Part shown: positions 5,476 through 49,617 of the stretch, piece after piece | How positions within the stretch are numbered: the first letter of the stretch is position 1 | Layout of the letters: every line of letters begins with the position of its first letter | Source of the DNA: Carboxylicivirga marina | GTDB taxonomy: Bacteria; Bacteroidota; Bacteroidia; Bacteroidales; Marinilabiliaceae | Assembly (NCBI RefSeq): GCF_016612505.1 | Contig: NZ_JAENRR010000035.1 | Span: forward strand, 1 to 49,662 | Reading direction: 5' to 3' | DNA length: 49,662 bases | Program-made: the position numbers and the translations under genes | Notes under the pieces: model-generated | Told to the model about the DNA's origin: nothing | What the model saw: the letters and a program-made list of their open reading frames with translations, nothing else | The model's database searches: none

Positions 5476-5508
5476 TGGTGATACTGGTGGTTCGGTATCA
5501 CCATTTTT
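5476..5508 (+). terminator. hairpin with T-run (unit c)
   Basis: Perfect 9-bp stem TGGTGATAC/GTATCACCA with a T-run on the plus strand. It overlaps the 3' end of the minus-strand methyltransferase gene, yet its T-run points the other way. Stem and loop resemble the units at 8633 and 8714. Confidence 0.5.
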
Positions 5509-5989
5509 ATTTCAACCGGATAAACTTCCCCTCAATATCACATTTTTCAAGAACATCAGCATTCGCCTTACCATATGCTACCAGCACACTTGGAGCACCA
5601 GCAGAACCACCTTGTTCACCGTTGACATGACAGAATTTTAGTCTACCTTTTATGAATAACAATGCATCAGCCGAATTCCATATGTGGTTGAAAAACATTT
5701 TGGTCTCGGTACGTGCAAATATTAAGGCAATACAATTGCCGTGTTCTACGCATTTAGCTAACCATTTTTTTGTTTCATTCCCATACGGAGGGTTGCACCA
5801 ACAGCGTCCTATCCATGGTTGAGTTAATCCATCGTCTTCTATTGTATAATGTTTACGTGCAGTCTCCCAAGGGCGATTGATTGGACTGCATGGGTCTAGG
5901 TCAAATTCCCCAAGAGCATCAGTTATATATGGGGGTGTCAGCCATTCGTCTTTGCCTATCGATGTGTGTCCTTCAAATTGTACATTCAT
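5507..5989 (-). CDS. phage-type DNA N6-adenine methyltransferase
   Basis: About 160 residues, the size of phage Dam-like methyltransferases (PF05869 type). Visible motifs are DEWLTPP near the N-terminus (14-20), LDPCSP at 31-36 and the catalytic NPPYG at 66-70, which places an adenine next to the S-adenosylmethionine site. The ATG at 5989 was chosen because the family begins just before the DEWLTPP motif and because the same start is preserved in a broken copy at 7381-7435. No restriction enzyme is adjacent, so it is an orphan methylase, typical of prophages and mobile islands. Target sequence unknown. Confidence 0.75.
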   Translation of the reverse strand: MNVQFEGHTSIGKDEWLTPPYITDALGEFDLDPCSPINRPWETARKHYTIEDDGLTQPWIGRCWCNPPYGNETKKWLAKCVEHGNCIALIFARTETKMFFNHIWNSADALLFIKGRLKFCHVNGEQGGSAGAPSVLVAYGKANADVLEKCDIEGKFIRLK

Positions 5990-6165
5990 ATTGGTTAAGT
6001 ATTTCCAATAAATACTCAGCCACTCAAAAAAAAATAGGGCGATAACTATATGAAAAGTCACCACCCTACAACAAAAATCAAAGCTAAAAATCTGTAAACA
6101 TGAAAAAGAAGAGGCTGAACACCGTTGTGTTCATAACCTAGAAACTGTTCAATCTGATCCCAATA
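5936..6165. repeat. diverged module, copy 1
   Basis: This stretch matches 7381-7650 in the same order: first codons of the methyltransferase, TAAATACTCAGCCACTCAAA, ATAGGGC, CAAAAATCAAAGCTAAA, a GGC-rich hairpin with ACTCCGTTG/ACACCGTTG, and TCTGATCCCAAT. In this copy the methyltransferase is intact while the 114-residue gene survives only as its last few codons; a minus-strand frame there reads WDQIEQF where the intact gene reads WDQILQL. Confidence 0.7.
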
Positions 6166-16660: not shown

Positions 16661-16668
16661 TAAATTTG
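16661..16668 (+). promoter_or_regulatory. -7 promoter box for the NagB/PIG-L gene
   Basis: TAAATTTG matches TAnnTTTG and lies 40 bp before the ATG at 16708. It contains the TTG that would be the alternative upstream start, so the ATG is preferred. Confidence 0.5.
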
Positions 16669-16707
16669 CATCTATCTAAAACCACAAAACTTCAATTTAG
16701 AGTAATT

Positions 16708-18690
16708 ATGATAGAAAAATTCAATCAGAAAATTTCTCCAGCAGGGAAATTCAAGAATGAAGGTTATCACGATGATCCTTATTTAAGAGCTTTAATAACA
16801 AAGCACGAAAAAATCTCCACAAAAATTTATGGTTCTTCAACCGAAGGCTCCAAAGCCGTAGCTTCTGAGATTGCTTCAATTATTAAAATAAAGGAACTAG
16901 AAGGAGGGAAATGTGTATTAGGATTGGCAGTTGGCTCTGCACCTAGCGAAGTATACTCTGAATTGGTTCGATTGCATAGAGAGGATGACTTAAGTTTTAA
17001 AAATGTCATTGTTTTTAATGTAATGGAGTATTATCCAATCACACCAGAAGCATTACAAAGCTTTAACCGAAATATTCGTGAGAAGTTTTTCAACCATATT
17101 GATATTCCCGAAGAGAATATTAATTATCTGGATAGTTCTATTCCACAGGAAAAAATTTATGAATTCTGCCATTCATTTGAAGAAAAAATTCAGCGTGTAG
17201 GTGGTATTGATATGCAAATATTAGGCATTGGCCGCACTGGTCACATCGGGTTAAATGAACCTGGTTCATCAGGTAACTCACTTACGCGTATTGTGTCTTT
17301 AGATAACATTACACGTACCGAAGCGGCATCTGACTTTTTTGGAATGGACAATGCCCCACGCAAAGCTATCACCATGGGTGTTAAAACCATTTTGAATGCT
17401 AAGCGAGTGCGTGTATTGGCTTGGGGTGAGGGAAAAGCCGCCATTCTGAAAAAAACAATCGAAGGAAACATTACCGAAGAAATACCAGCATCATTTTTAC
17501 AAAAGCATGAGAATTGTAAATTGATAGTTGACGAGGCGGCAGCAGCCGATTTAATTCGTGTACAAACGCCTTGGTTAATAGATAGTGTTGAGTGGGATGA
17601 CCGTTTGATTAAAAAGGCTGTTTTGTGGTTATGTCAAAAGGTTAAAAAGCCAATTTTAAAACTGACTGATAGAGATTACAACGATAATGGTATGGGTGAT
17701 ATTTTGGCCGAAAGAGGTTCGGCATATCAAACCAATATCCGCATATTTAATGAATTACAGCACACCATTACCGGTTGGCCGGGAGGTAAGCCAAATGCCG
17801 ATGATACCAATCGACCGGAGCGTAAAGCGCCAGCAAAAAAACGTGTCATTATTTTCAGTCCGCATCCCGATGATGATGTGATTTCAATGGGAGGTACAAT
17901 GTTACGTTTGGTTGATCAGGGACATGAAGTGCATGTTGCTTATCAGGTATCAGGAAGTATTGCTGTATCTGACGATGATGTGTTGCGATACCTTGATTTT
18001 ATTGGCGACTATACCGATGGATTAACCGAGGATGCTAAAAAGATTCAGGACGAACACAATAAGATTCGTAAGTTTTTGGCCAATAAAAAAGCCGATCAGA
18101 TTGACTTGCCTGAGGTACGTCGAATCAAAGGTTTGATTAGGGTAGGAGAGGCCAAGGCAGGATGCCGTTATGCCAATGTGAAAGATGAGAACGTTCATTT
18201 CTTAAACTTACCATTTTATGAGTCGGGGAGTGTTGAAAAGCACCCTATGGGCAAGGCTGATGTGAAAATTGTTGCCGATCTTATTAAAGAAGTTCAGCCA
18301 CATCAGATTTTTGCTGCAGGTGATTTATCTGATCCACATGGTACACACCGTGTTTGTCTGGATGCGATCTTCCAGGCGGTTGATCTCTTGAAAAAAGAAG
18401 AATGGATGAAGGACTGCTGGGTGTGGTTATATCGCGGTGCTTGGCATGAGTGGGAAATCCATAACATTGAAATGGCAGTACCTATTAGTCCTGATGAGCT
18501 GATGCGCAAGCGTAACGCTATCTTTAAGCATCAATCGCAGAAAGATGGAGCGATGTTCTTAGGGGGTGATAATCGTGAATTCTGGCAACGTGCCGAAGAT
18601 CGTAATCGGGGAACTGCAAATTTATACAACGAGCTGGGTATGGCTGAGTATGAGGCCTTTGAAGCGTTTGTTCGTTACGAGTTTTTATAA
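16708..18690 (+). CDS. NagB-like deaminase/PIG-L deacetylase fusion
   Basis: About 660 residues from the ATG at 16708. Residues 1-290 are a glucosamine-6-phosphate deaminase fold, with GLAVGSAPSEVY at 72-83 and GIGRTGHIGLNEPG at 173-186. Residues 375-660 are a PIG-L (LmbE) zinc deacetylase with HPDDD at 386-390 and DPHGTHR at 542-548. The combination suggests N-acetylglucosamine phosphate deacetylation followed by deamination or isomerisation, in amino-sugar use. However, positions that are aspartate in E. coli NagB (D72 and D141) are methionine 106 and threonine 177 here, while the histidine and glutamate are kept. The true substrate may therefore differ from glucosamine-6-phosphate. This long form is common in Bacteroidota. 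Confidence 0.85.
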   Translation: MIEKFNQKISPAGKFKNEGYHDDPYLRALITKHEKISTKIYGSSTEGSKAVASEIASIIKIKELEGGKCVLGLAVGSAPSEVYSELVRLHREDDLSFKNVIVFNVMEYYPITPEALQSFNRNIREKFFNHIDIPEENINYLDSSIPQEKIYEFCHSFEEKIQRVGGIDMQILGIGRTGHIGLNEPGSSGNSLTRIVSLDNITRTEAASDFFGMDNAPRKAITMGVKTILNAKRVRVLAWGEGKAAILKKTIEGNITEEIPASFLQKHENCKLIVDEAAAADLIRVQTPWLIDSVEWDDRLIKKAVLWLCQKVKKPILKLTDRDYNDNGMGDILAERGSAYQTNIRIFNELQHTITGWPGGKPNADDTNRPERKAPAKKRVIIFSPHPDDDVISMGGTMLRLVDQGHEVHVAYQVSGSIAVSDDDVLRYLDFIGDYTDGLTEDAKKIQDEHNKIRKFLANKKADQIDLPEVRRIKGLIRVGEAKAGCRYANVKDENVHFLNLPFYESGSVEKHPMGKADVKIVADLIKEVQPHQIFAAGDLSDPHGTHRVCLDAIFQAVDLLKKEEWMKDCWVWLYRGAWHEWEIHNIEMAVPISPDELMRKRNAIFKHQSQKDGAMFLGGDNREFWQRAEDRNRGTANLYNELGMAEYEAFEAFVRYEFL

Positions 18691-18708: not shown

Positions 18709-18740
18709 CAAGCCCGGAGCTGATTTGCTGCGGGCTTTCT
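18709..18740 (+). terminator. terminator after NagB/PIG-L gene
   Basis: Stem AAGCCCG/CGGGCTT with a 13-nt loop and a short T-run, 19 bp past the stop codon. Confidence 0.6.
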
Positions 18741-18777: not shown

Positions 18778-18796
18778 GTACATATTATTTATGTAC
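18778..18796. repeat. short perfect palindrome before the 21-bp array
   Basis: GTACATA/TATGTAC with a 5-bp spacer, ending 20 bp before the first array unit. Possibly an operator or a boundary of the array; nothing shows which. Confidence 0.45.
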
Positions 18797-18816
18797 TAGA
18801 TGATAACTTCTATCAG

Positions 18817-19046
18817 TCAGCGGAGGATTTCCACCATTCAGCGGAGAGTTTCTTTCTGTCAGCGGAGCTTTTGCAGCAGTCAGCGGACAATTGTTACTAG
18901 TCAGCGGAAGATTTCCTTCAGTCAGCGGGAGATTTCCCAATCCGGAAAACGTCCGCTTAGTGCTGGAAAACATCCGCTTAGTGCCGGAGAATGTCCGCTT
19001 ATCTCTGGAAATATTCCGCTATGTAATGGAAAACATCCGCTTAGTG
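18817..19046. repeat. 21-bp repeat array that inverts in the middle
   Basis: Six units start with TCAGCGGA at 18817, 18838, 18859, 18880, 18901 and 18922. They are followed by five units in the opposite sense at 18942, 18963, 18984, 19005 and 19026, with the form GGAAAAnnTCCGCTTAG. The period is 21 bp except for one 20-bp step at the switch. Only the 8-bp core and a TTTCC/GGAAA block are conserved; the rest varies. Because 21 is a multiple of three, heptapeptide-repeat frames run through it on both strands, but none has gene-like features. Confidence 0.9.
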
Positions 19047-19140
19047 ATGACCAAACACGGCCTTGCCTTAATTTCATTAAATGGAAAGTGAATATGATAT
19101 CTGCTCAGCCAGAAGTGTATAAGTGTGAAAAAAAACAGAT

Positions 19141-19173
19141 AAAAAAAGAGCAACCATTGCTGATTGCTCTTTA
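19141..19173 (-). terminator. terminator of the flavodiiron gene
   Basis: Stem AAAGAGCAA/TTGCTCTTT, 21 bp beyond the minus-strand stop and followed on that strand by a T7 run. Confidence 0.75.
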
Positions 19174-19193
19174 AAATATATTGCTGTTGTTGA

Positions 19194-20390
19194 TTATCTG
19201 TCTGCTTTAAGCTTCTCGGCCATAGCTACACCCAATTGCCAGCAAGCTTCGTACTTGTCTTCTTTAAGTGCATGTTTCTCCTCAACGGCATCGGCCACTT
19301 CTTCCCATTTTAGGCTTTCACCAATTTCGCGCAGTTTCTTAACCGATGCGCCAGCCCAGGTAAATGAACCAAGTACACCAAAATAGTGGTTAACAACGCC
19401 CATGTGCTGTAGCTTCGACGCTAAAGCCTCCATGTTAGGATGTAATTCGTTACTGTAGGTTGGGCTTCCTAAGATAATGCCTTTGTATTTGAATACATCA
19501 GAGATAATGTATGACGGATGTGTTTTACTAACATCATAAACACGTACATTTTTAATGCCGCTCTCAGTGATTGCACGAGCAGTAACTTCGGCCATTTCCT
19601 CGGTATTACCATACATTGATGCATAGGCCACAACCACGCCTTCTTCACCTTCATATTTGCTCCACTGATCGTACATTTCAATCATTCGGGCAATGTTTTC
19701 GCGGTAAATTGGACCATGCGAAGGTGCTACCATTTTAATGTCTAATCCGCCTAGCTTCTGAAGCGCTTTTTGTACAGGATTACCATACTTACCAACGATA
19801 TTAGAATAGTAACGACGCATTTCGTCAAGATAATGATCGAAATCTAATTCATCATCAAAAATACCGCCATCTAAAGTGCCAAAACTTCCGAAGGCATCTG
19901 ATGAGAAAAGAATTTTATTGGTCTCTTCCATACATACCATTGACTCTGGCCAGTGTACCATAGGCACCGTGTAGAAGCTTAGTTTGTTTTTACCCAAATC
20001 TATAGAGTCACCTTCTTTAACAAGCTCAAAATTGCCTGAAATACCATAGTATCCTTCAATCATTGGAATGGTTTTTTTGTTTCCAACAATCTTCATATCA
20101 GGATACAGTTCAGTTAAAATACGAATGGCACCAGAATGATCGGGCTCCATGTGATTCACCACCAGGTAATCAACATTACGGCCGTTTAATATGGCTCTAA
20201 CTTTTGCCAGCCATTTTTCAAAATGACCTGCCTCCACAGTGTCAACTATTGCAACTTTTTCGTCGGCAATAACATATGAGTTATACGAAACACCACGGTC
20301 GAGTGGCCACATATTCTCAAATAAACTAGTGCGACGATCATTCACACCTACGTAAAAAATATCTTCAGCAAGATTTACCGGTCTGTACAT
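19194..20390 (-). CDS. flavodiiron protein, FprA family
   Basis: A 398-residue cytoplasmic oxygen or nitric oxide reductase. The N-terminal metallo-beta-lactamase domain carries the diiron ligands H80, E82, D84 and H85 in HMEPDH, H146, D165 and H225. The C-terminal flavodoxin domain begins near residue 252 with YASMYGNTEEMA as the FMN-binding loop. No rubredoxin domain is fused, so electrons must come from a separate donor. It protects anaerobic enzymes against oxygen or nitric oxide. A single gene with its own promoter box and terminator. Confidence 0.93.
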   Translation of the reverse strand: MYRPVNLAEDIFYVGVNDRRTSLFENMWPLDRGVSYNSYVIADEKVAIVDTVEAGHFEKWLAKVRAILNGRNVDYLVVNHMEPDHSGAIRILTELYPDMKIVGNKKTIPMIEGYYGISGNFELVKEGDSIDLGKNKLSFYTVPMVHWPESMVCMEETNKILFSSDAFGSFGTLDGGIFDDELDFDHYLDEMRRYYSNIVGKYGNPVQKALQKLGGLDIKMVAPSHGPIYRENIARMIEMYDQWSKYEGEEGVVVAYASMYGNTEEMAEVTARAITESGIKNVRVYDVSKTHPSYIISDVFKYKGIILGSPTYSNELHPNMEALASKLQHMGVVNHYFGVLGSFTWAGASVKKLREIGESLKWEEVADAVEEKHALKEDKYEACWQLGVAMAEKLKADR

Positions 20391-47589: not shown

Positions 47590-48333
47590 ATGAATGAAGA
47601 CAAGGTACTTCAGGAGATGCTTCCTGAAATTAAGGCAGTGAACAAAGAGGATATTAAGAGCTGTAATATCCCGATAAGTGTATTTGTACAGGAAGCAGGA
47701 AACCTGAACGAGCGTGTGAGCCTTGATATGGCCCAACTACTGGAAGTGGGCATGCCACCAGAGTTGCAACAGCGTCTTGGTTTACTTCGCGATGCTTTGT
47801 TTGCCGCCGAAGTCAACTGGCAGGAGCAACAGAGTGAACGAGAAAAAGCATTGGCATTGTGGAAAGAAAAATCGCCACACTTATACGCATTACGAAAGGA
47901 GATATTGGAGCACCTCGCCTTTGCTTTTCGCAAAGATGAGCGCCTGATGGAGCAGATTGCCGATATTGAAGAAGGCAGCTCACATGCCGATGCTATTGAA
48001 GATCTGGCACGATTAGCGGTATTGGGGGCACAAAACCCTGAGCTGGTGCAGGCTATTAACTACGATGCAGCCAGGTTTGACACGGCTGATGCCATGGTAA
48101 GTGAGATGAGTGGTGTGCTGTCGGCAGCTAACGGTTACCTTTACCGCGACGATGAAGGTAAATTGATAAGAGACAAATCCTATACCTTGCTTAAGGAAGT
48201 GGTGGACGAAATACGTGACTATGGTCGCTTCGTTTTCCGCAACGATCCGGAGCATGTAAAAGGTTATTCGAGCAAGTATGTTCGTGACAGAGCCCAGGCT
48301 TATCGTAGCTCAAAAAATGAACAACAAGTGTAA
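47590..48333 (+). CDS. hypothetical alpha-helical protein, 247 aa
   Basis: Family not recognised. The protein is acidic, soluble and predicted to be almost wholly helical, with a likely coiled-coil segment around residues 75-100 (NWQEQQSEREKALALWKEK). No signal peptide. It is flanked by a 585-bp gap and by the second 21-bp array, so it belongs to accessory DNA. A clear terminator follows the stop by about 20 bp. Confidence 0.65.
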   Translation: MNEDKVLQEMLPEIKAVNKEDIKSCNIPISVFVQEAGNLNERVSLDMAQLLEVGMPPELQQRLGLLRDALFAAEVNWQEQQSEREKALALWKEKSPHLYALRKEILEHLAFAFRKDERLMEQIADIEEGSSHADAIEDLARLAVLGAQNPELVQAINYDAARFDTADAMVSEMSGVLSAANGYLYRDDEGKLIRDKSYTLLKEVVDEIRDYGRFVFRNDPEHVKGYSSKYVRDRAQAYRSSKNEQQV

Positions 48334-48378: not shown

Positions 48379-48411
48379 TATACCCGGTTTATTGAATGAC
48401 TACCGGGCTGT

Positions 48412-48748
48412 GCGTGATAGGCCTTTGGTTTGATGTGATATGGAAGTCATTTGGCGTGATATCGTGTTACATGGGTGTGATATTGAACTTTGAGGGCGTG
48501 ATATTGACATATTAGTGCGTGATGTGAAGGGGATTCCGCGTGATATGAGGGTACTTGTGCGTGATGTGTATATGGTTTGATGTGATGTGGAAGTCATCTG
48601 GCGTGATGTCGGGTTGTTTTGGCGTGATATTAAAGATAGAGGGAATGATGTTGACCTAAGCACCTGTGATGTGAGGGTAGTTGGAAATGATATGGGGGTG
48701 TAGGCTTGTGATGTTGGCTAAATATCGTGTGATATAGGAGTGGTATTG
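48412..48748. repeat. 21-bp repeat array, about 16 units
   Basis: Units of the form GCGTGATAT followed by about 12 variable bases start at 48412, 48433, 48454 and so on every 21 bp to 48706; the last step is 22 bp. GTGAT is the most constant part. Units 2-3 and 9-10 share a longer identical stretch 147 bp (seven units) apart, a sign of segmental expansion. The core decays to AATGAT or CTGTGAT towards the right end. A minus-strand heptapeptide frame (SRQxxxI-like) runs through 48400-48663 but has no gene-like features. The remaining DNA up to 49005 shows nothing I can name. Confidence 0.9.
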
Positions 48749-49005
48749 AGTGAGGTTAATACCTGTTTGATGCCAATCATTTATCAACATAAGGATGCCT
48801 ATTTCGAAAATAATTTTAATTTTAGCATTGCTTAAGCGGAAATGACAATATCCTCAGGAGGGTGTAGTAAGGAGAGTTATTTTTAGATAGAACTTTAACC
48901 CTAAGCACAAAAGTATTGGCATGTTGATAGTGGGTATTGAAAATATATCGGTAATGTGCATAGAGATACAGAAGGGTTGTGCACAATTAATACAGATCGC
49001 TAATT

Positions 49006-49617
49006 ATGGACATAAGGATTAGGAAAATATTCGATAACTGGGTTCACTTTAAGACAAAAGTGATGGAGTTTGAAGTGTTTTTCAATGATAATGAAAGTAT
49101 TCGGGATTTAAGAGATGAGTTACTTCCGGACTTTTTCTTGGACTTATACGACTTTTACTGGGAAGATTTTCTAATAACTATTGCTCGACTTCTTGACAAT
49201 CATAAGCAAGGGCAAAATTTGAATTTAACTTTATTTACATTAGTTGAGGTTCTTAAGGAAAAAGACAAAGAGACATTTAAAGACGTCAAAAATCAGTTGG
49301 ATAATATTAAAGAAAAGTATAAAGACATAATTACGTATAGGCGAAAATGCCTAGCTCATTATGATTTAGACTATACAACTGGGACAAAAGATTTTGGTTC
49401 ATCAACACACATTGATGAAGTTCATGCTTTTTTGGATTCAATGCTCGATATAATTAATAGGACACTAATTGCATTAGGAGAGAATCCCAAAACTAATTTA
49501 GTAATGTACCCTGGCAGATATCGTGGAGCAAAGGAGTTATTAAGAATTTTGGAAAAAGAAAAACAATCTAGAAATTTAGAAAATGGTAACTACTCACGTA
49601 CTATTGTATTCTTCTAG
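49006..49617 (+). CDS. HEPN-domain protein, AbiU2-like
   Basis: A 203-residue mostly helical protein. R113-x4-H118 in YRRKCLAHYD is the HEPN ribonuclease motif, and the long helical layout with AHYDLDY resembles the AbiU2-type HEPN domain (PF18734). Such proteins occur in abortive infection and toxin-antitoxin settings, where the motif cuts RNA. No nucleotidyltransferase or antitoxin partner is visible, though only 45 bp remain downstream. Family call tentative. Confidence 0.65.
   Translation: MDIRIRKIFDNWVHFKTKVMEFEVFFNDNESIRDLRDELLPDFFLDLYDFYWEDFLITIARLLDNHKQGQNLNLTLFTLVEVLKEKDKETFKDVKNQLDNIKEKYKDIITYRRKCLAHYDLDYTTGTKDFGSSTHIDEVHAFLDSMLDIINRTLIALGENPKTNLVMYPGRYRGAKELLRILEKEKQSRNLENGNYSRTIVFF

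Follow-up and report, generated by a model that had tools for sequence, protein, structure and literature searches.

The window, the whole stretch of 49,662 nucleotides from Carboxylicivirga marina that was analysed (its genome is labelled G000), contains two arrays of short sites repeated every 21 bp, here called array A and array B. Array A is placed between convergent genes, outside the apparent terminators of both, and array B directly follows a gene here called gene X. The features concerned are:

16666..18690, + strand: gene upstream of array A, which we take to encode a NagB-like/LmbE-like fusion
18711..18740, + strand: apparent intrinsic terminator of that gene, read directly from the sequence
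18778..18796, no strand: hairpin-like short palindrome, GTACATA-TTATT-TATGTAC, left of array A
18800..19174, + strand: 124-aa open frame spanning array A, judged to derive from the array and to be no gene
18819..18937, + strand: forward arm of array A, six AGCGGA-N3-TTTCC sites at 21-bp pitch
18938..18943, no strand: dyad centre of array A, 6 bp
18944..19041, - strand: inverted arm of array A, five AGCGGA-N3-TTTCC sites at 21-bp pitch
19141..19172, - strand: apparent intrinsic terminator of the convergent gene, read directly from the sequence
19194..20390, - strand: gene convergent on array A, presumably encoding an FprA-type flavodiiron protein
47590..48333, + strand: gene X, encoding a 247-aa protein, directly upstream of array B
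48411..48760, + strand: array B, 16-17 units with the core CGTGATAT at 21-bp pitch, in one direction throughout

The bipartite site of array A, AGCGGA-N3-TTTCC, is 14 bp long, is matched with 0-3 mismatches per copy, and occurs once in every 21 bp, leaving gaps of N3 and N7. Forward sites begin at 18819, 18840, 18861, 18882, 18903 and 18924, and inverted sites at 18944, 18965, 18986, 19007 and 19028; every step within an arm is exactly 21 bp, and the last forward start is separated from the first inverted start by 20 bp. The initial annotation, which had described six units followed by five reversed ones at a spacing of 21 bp, with a flip of orientation at about 18941, is borne out on these points, the switch being found at 18938-18943. 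However, the word it listed for the reversed half, TCCGCTTAG with GGAAAA, is not a separate one, but the same site on the opposite strand, and the palindrome it called perfect consists of two paired 7-base arms with an unpaired 5-base centre. AGCGGA, with at most one mismatch, recurs six times at exactly 21 bp, against a maximum of three in 2000 letter shuffles of intergenic DNA. Open frames of 124 aa and 62 aa cross array A, with both strands open; the longer was judged to derive from the array because sister arrays have periods of 20, 22 and 23 bp, which cannot hold a frame. The window has no Rfam match at gathering scores. Elsewhere in it, at 5507-6064, is an open frame that we take to resemble a phage-type DNA N6-adenine methylase.

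Array A is not conserved in place. Named relatives of the gene upstream of it, at 92-95% identity, place the genome close to Carboxylicivirga. The 560 bp downstream of this gene were compared in 12 named relatives, of which 11 were readable, the sequence from L048 being too short to judge the presence of an array; none of the 11 carries array A. Four have a short gap followed by the same convergent gene, and five have other neighbouring genes and no evident array, whilst of the remaining two, one (L049) has a different 21-bp array at this position and the other (L051) about three units of 21 bp built on another word. Conservation of core and spacing at this locus, on which the first interpretation had been made to depend, is therefore literally absent in the 11 readable relatives, but both are kept elsewhere in the relatives’ genomes.

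A search of 60 relatives for pairs of AGCGGA at 21 bp returned matches in 22, mostly single pairs, and the reversed control also gave single matches in many genomes. Clusters of such pairs were found in G000, in G007 (contigs C13 and C53) and in G032, with looser clusters in G022, and a motif search of the 14 genomes of the genus added a locus on G008:C66. The full motif is arranged as a dyad at three loci in two congeners (G007:C13, G007:C53 and G008:C66), and one locus in each of two other genera has a dyad of the AGCGG core only (G032:C68 and G022:C422). Measured between site starts, the switch spans 20 bp in array A, at both G007 loci, in G008 and in G032; at G022:C422, where a motif scan allowing up to three mismatches finds the nearest forward and inverted sites 187 bp apart and none adjacent, the common geometry is seen in the distance from GCGG to CCGC, which is 28 bp there and in G032. 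Switch geometry is identical in all six dyad loci, with the sites facing inward. This count leaves out G032:C57, which runs in one direction, and G032:C488, which does so except for one inverted core alongside. Phages searched with array A gave no match, and viral contigs searched with its motif yielded a single motif pair and no array. Recurrence at non-orthologous loci and in other species is consistent with the suggestion, made at the outset, that array A is a row of directional protein sites on one DNA face whose direction flips midway.

The division of each unit into a conserved core and a freely varying remainder also holds, 11 motif positions being kept and eight others near random. Across four loci in three species, the identity of units within arrays is 0.742 at core positions and 0.295 at the others, and between loci it is 0.734 and 0.299, respectively; these figures leave out two further columns and use unit borders set by eye, with the right arm of G007:C13 bordered by motif position, which favours core identity there, and with lattice slips in G008 lowering it. 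The equality of the within-array and between-locus values agrees with selection acting on a site at which the DNA is bound, and not with recent tandem copying. Recent tandem duplication followed by drift is accordingly rejected for the family of array A, a rejection that does not extend to array B, which has super-repeats. The conclusion of constraint rests on this comparison, rather than on a column-heterogeneity test in which eight unit sets out of 17, predominantly those with many units, reached P<0.05 on variance against a null that ignores the shared ancestry of units.

Array A belongs to a wider class of intergenic arrays. A blind scan for periods of 14-45 bp across 1.78 Mb from three genomes of the genus made 21 calls at periods of 20-23 bp (two at 20, 12 at 21, four at 22 and three at 23); a further 11 fell on the 42-bp harmonic, each remaining period had 0-3, and block shuffles of the same DNA gave none. 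One of the 21 (L114) was judged coding, leaving 20 intergenic arrays, six of which are crossed by frames of at least 90 aa that were judged to derive from the arrays. Most arrays of the class have a core word of their own, with array B, L115 and L097 sharing one; they comprise about 5-17 degenerate units, 27 in one case, and many run in one direction. The same kind of scan made two calls in 350 kb of Escherichia coli K-12, both coding and none intergenic. Across 388 kb from other families of the order there was an intergenic array (L249), another spanned by a frame judged to derive from it (L238), and a low-complexity repeat (L237); 149 kb of flanks from other Bacteroidota contained one array (L066, 22 bp). 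The L237 repeat (1295-1690, in G037) is an A-rich, nearly regular 21-bp minisatellite, different in character from the arrays of the class.

Individual members of the class vary in setting and in finer structure. The L107 array lies between the stop codon and the terminator of a glutamate-dehydrogenase-type gene, and is found at this place in none of the 12 congeners for which 700 bp were read. An exact-pattern search with the core of L163 found one similar-looking copy in the same genome (G005:C7), the rest being scattered matches. Two kinds of unit seem to alternate in L216, L107, L129 and L165, giving a 42-bp double period, and the units of L142 (3827-3940), L155 (16719-16830) and L095 (19442-19690) resemble small palindromes with apparent compensating changes. 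Literature searches brought up no listing that names such arrays.

Array B dominates the periodicity of the window, where autocorrelation at lag 21 peaks at 48411-48760 with 0.61 of 150 bases, compared with 0.39-0.46 at the other lags from 15 to 39. It contains super-repeats of 105 bp and 147 bp, and a diverged copy, part of the flank included, lies on contig C200 of the same genome among different neighbouring genes (L115, 12780-13050). Copying can thus carry segments of an array to other locations. Behind array B, at 49006-49617, is a HEPN gene of the AbiU2 family (Pfam E 3e-13), and the C200 gene at the comparable position is not similar to it. In front of array B stands gene X, which has a 79% identical paralogue on G000:C10, directly before an array related to array B. 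Gene X was found in all 14 genomes of the genus, in 12 of 198 genomes sampled from the order, and in one of 296 sampled from the phylum, that one being G000 itself.

The association of such genes with arrays was quantified at 25 places, comprising 24 of the 40 gene-X places (gene X and its C10 paralogue among them) and one gene from G032, which entered the sample through its adjacent array. Array B, C10 and G032 were the discovery cases, and all other places were picked before their DNA was seen. The best repeat spacing was strictly 20-22 bp behind 22 of the 25 genes, compared with 24 of 300 random gene ends (Fisher 2e-18), and chains of at least four units followed 17 of the 25, compared with three of the 300 (Fisher 1e-19). 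Without the discovery cases these proportions were 19/22 (Fisher 5e-16) and 14/22 (Fisher 2e-16), respectively. The 25 genes are not independent, as they include orthologues and three near-identical copies (L296, L297 and L299) with chains of only three units each. A 20-22-bp array was absent behind two genes (L289 and L305), and at L298 the best spacing was a tie; by eye, the gene-X array at L298 (G002, 80-250) forms a dyad around a long inverted repeat. In 19 gene-X arrays, 88 of the 108 unit-to-unit steps are 21 bp. Several of these arrays lie, as judged by eye, beyond a terminator-like T-run of the gene, L294 being an exception. Segment copying recurs here, with 12980-13260 of L079 (G002) being 74% identical over 149 bp to an array behind one of the gene-X genes in that genome.

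The cores of gene-X arrays vary by locus, and close orthologues precede related words: CGACGGGA in G010, CGACCGGA in G011, CGAYGGGA in G009 and CGAGCGGA in G032. Over 23 gene-array pairs, the similarity of the arrays is not related to the identity of the proteins (Spearman 0.08, P 0.21 by permutation), and concerted change of protein and word is therefore a reading from a few close pairs. The model of the gene X protein is all-helical (pLDDT 92.6), and an internal duplication divides the protein into two similar halves (HHalign E 1.4e-5, the halves having been cut by eye). Its predicted fold has no match in the PDB at E<=0.001, and hence no DNA-binding relative was recognised.

The gene-X profile is distantly homologous to that of the NCBIfam family PQLLE (NF052641; HHalign 91%, E 9e-7), and the PQLLE model matches 21 of 23 gene-X members at E<=1, the best at 1e-8. 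The name of this family carries no function, and no paper was found under it. Two arrays of the class, L153 and L129, begin about 30 bp and 70 bp, respectively, upstream of genes whose products are PQLLE members over the cut-off (NCBIfam E 2e-66 and 6e-71). Four of the 20 arrays from the blind scan adjoin a gene-X or PQLLE gene where 0.24 would be expected (P 1e-4), or two of 18 without two discovery cases (P 0.012); the other 16 adjoin none. Two pairs of PQLLE genes were met in the sample: the two genes of L090 have a 21-bp chain between them, and L168 scores 3.8 at 21 bp against 4.4 at 23 bp, making a chain doubtful. The protein beside L092 proved unrelated to gene X or PQLLE on profile comparison. 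A 706-aa protein at L172, drawn in by an iterated profile, is an efflux adaptor according to NCBIfam; it was taken as drift and not counted.

No gene-X or PQLLE gene adjoins array A, for which a partner from this superfamily is a tentative proposal. Like the linked arrays, array A has its own core and a lattice within 20-22 bp. Array B has in addition an adjoining member gene, as does the array on G007:C53, which carries the array A motif and stops about 80 bp short of a PQLLE-like gene (the last strong site being at 122 bp) whose NCBIfam match, at E 1.1e-6, is below the cut-off. The array that follows a gene-X gene in G032 contains AGCGGA but lacks TTTCC.

We propose that array A is a dyad row of sequence-specific sites, of a class likely to be read by gene X/PQLLE proteins stacking head-to-tail, and give this reading a probability of about 0.5. 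Several other explanations were weighed against it. Rep_3 plasmid iterons, in which an origin consists of direct repeats of about 17-22 bp with a conserved core, are the nearest anatomical analogue, array A likewise being made of several repeats in this range with a conserved core. The arrays might therefore be orphan iterons, chromosomal relics or decoys of the sites of Rep-type initiators that might, when a plasmid enters, titrate or handcuff its initiator. Both pitch and direct-repeat anatomy agree with this, five of nine Rep_3 loci in the relatives have clear 21-22-bp repeats (L226, L227, L228, L232 and L233), and when eight arrays were compared with 72,556 plasmids, two had matches at E<0.1, each upstream of a replication gene (Acinetobacter repM at E 2e-3, Campylobacter p9562 at E 0.06), with three of the six Acinetobacter iteron units being one base off the array A motif and three being two bases off. 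However, the other six arrays, including two with the array A motif (L215 and L182), had no iteron match among these plasmids, and any 21-bp lattice tends to match iterons. No Rep_3 initiator gene stands beside array A, either among its NagB-LmbE-like and FprA-like flanks or in a search of G000 for PF01051; this family was not found in G007 either, and was found in six of 60 relatives; in G008, which has both Rep_3 and an array, the iteron word is a different one. The class differs from iterons in that its arrays lack an adjoining rep gene, are sometimes dyads, have many cores per genome, and are linked instead to gene X/PQLLE proteins, neither of which was found on plasmids. Hence we consider an iteron origin rather unlikely. 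A repeat that binds no protein, either a neutral minisatellite or a non-autonomous mobile one, would account for the lineage-specific presence of the arrays at the array A and L107 loci, for the copied segments in C200 and at L079, and for the super-repeats of array B. Yet in the array A family the core is kept and the rest randomised to equal extents within and between loci, all six dyad loci have one and the same geometry, and the class is tied to one protein superfamily, all of which make neutrality unlikely.

Transcription offers three further explanations. The arrays could be cut into small RNAs acting with the linked helical protein, in a layout resembling TIGR-Tas or CRISPR systems, as a gene for such a protein stands beside an array with a locus-specific core and a variable remainder, and the 42-bp period was also called. 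The identical repeats of about 25-36 nt seen in CRISPR are absent from array A, as the initial annotation had noted. TIGR-Tas systems have a Nop-domain protein and two alternating 8-12-nt repeats with 9-nt spacers, giving 36-nt guides (PMC12045711); they are alike in having an array beside a protein gene with repeats fixed per locus and differing between loci, but none of the 23 gene-X proteins matches a Nop family of Pfam at E<=1, each 21 bp of array A contains a single site with N3 and N7 gaps rather than two repeats with 9-nt spacers, and some arrays here are bidirectional. A dyad array would moreover be antisense over one half, and the position of several gene-X arrays past a terminator-like T-run also counts against this explanation, which is distinctly improbable. 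The second explanation, a transcript folding into a long imperfect rod in which left units pair with right ones, had been the alternative to protein sites in the initial annotation, and the folding z-scores of -5.3 on the + strand and -3.6 on the - strand agree with it. Nevertheless, a strong fold is expected from inverted arms anyway, many arrays of the class run in one direction, and in four arrays the variable positions of mirrored units agree at 0.25-0.40, no better than the 0.35-0.38 of other pairs. On this mirrored-unit test a long-hairpin RNA is rejected, and the rod is very improbable, such that of the two original alternatives it is the row of protein sites that finds support. The third, a gene for a heptapeptide-repeat protein, draws on the frames that cross array A, but across the class the period is not a multiple of three, and array A reverses midway with frames open on both strands; it is scarcely credible.

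Head-to-tail binding by gene X/PQLLE proteins is therefore the likeliest mechanism for which the arrays would serve. In array A a 14-bp bipartite site recurs every two helical turns, with all sites facing the centre, and the readers of such arrays would most likely be the small helical superfamily of gene X and PQLLE, several members of which keep an array beside their own gene. One two-lobed protein may occupy each 21-bp unit, touching both half-words, and the pitch suggests that neighbouring proteins would share one face of the DNA and stack head-to-tail. Two protein rows, one per arm, would then meet at the dyad, the geometry of which is fixed, and the resulting nucleoprotein row might condense, bridge or mark its stretch of DNA. 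Home arrays, seen upstream of PQLLE genes and downstream of gene X, may tie up or regulate the protein, and dispersed arrays may be further docking places.

Such an arrangement has partial parallels. In the centromere-like or operator arrays of the ParR/TubR type, a protein coats phased directional sites head-to-tail; the arrays described here have similarly phased directional sites, and by analogy a similar coating is proposed, but no partition gene was read next to array A, and these arrays are dispersed, with differing cores. Extragenic repeats of the REP/BIME type are also dispersed and intergenic, with some in inverted pairs, whereas in the present class short sites, with cores specific to each family, keep strictly to a 21-bp lattice. 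Two protein scans of viral contigs, reaching close relatives only, found no relative of either gene X or the L129 PQLLE protein.

More tentatively, and as something we hold somewhat short of probable, the observations may together reflect an undescribed two-part chromosomal system, in which diversifying two-lobed helical proteins are paired with private 21-bp address words in home and dispersed arrays, with several orthogonal pairs per genome. Chromosome folding, the insulation of gene ends and a selfish function are possible cellular roles. If the proteins do bind the arrays, then one genus supplies many natural pairs of protein and address, and the altered cores that accompany the same gene in neighbouring species would be data on the concerted change of DNA specificity over many sites. 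A protein family known here by name alone would also acquire its first role, and the question would arise of what a chromosome gains from private rows of phased sites between its genes.
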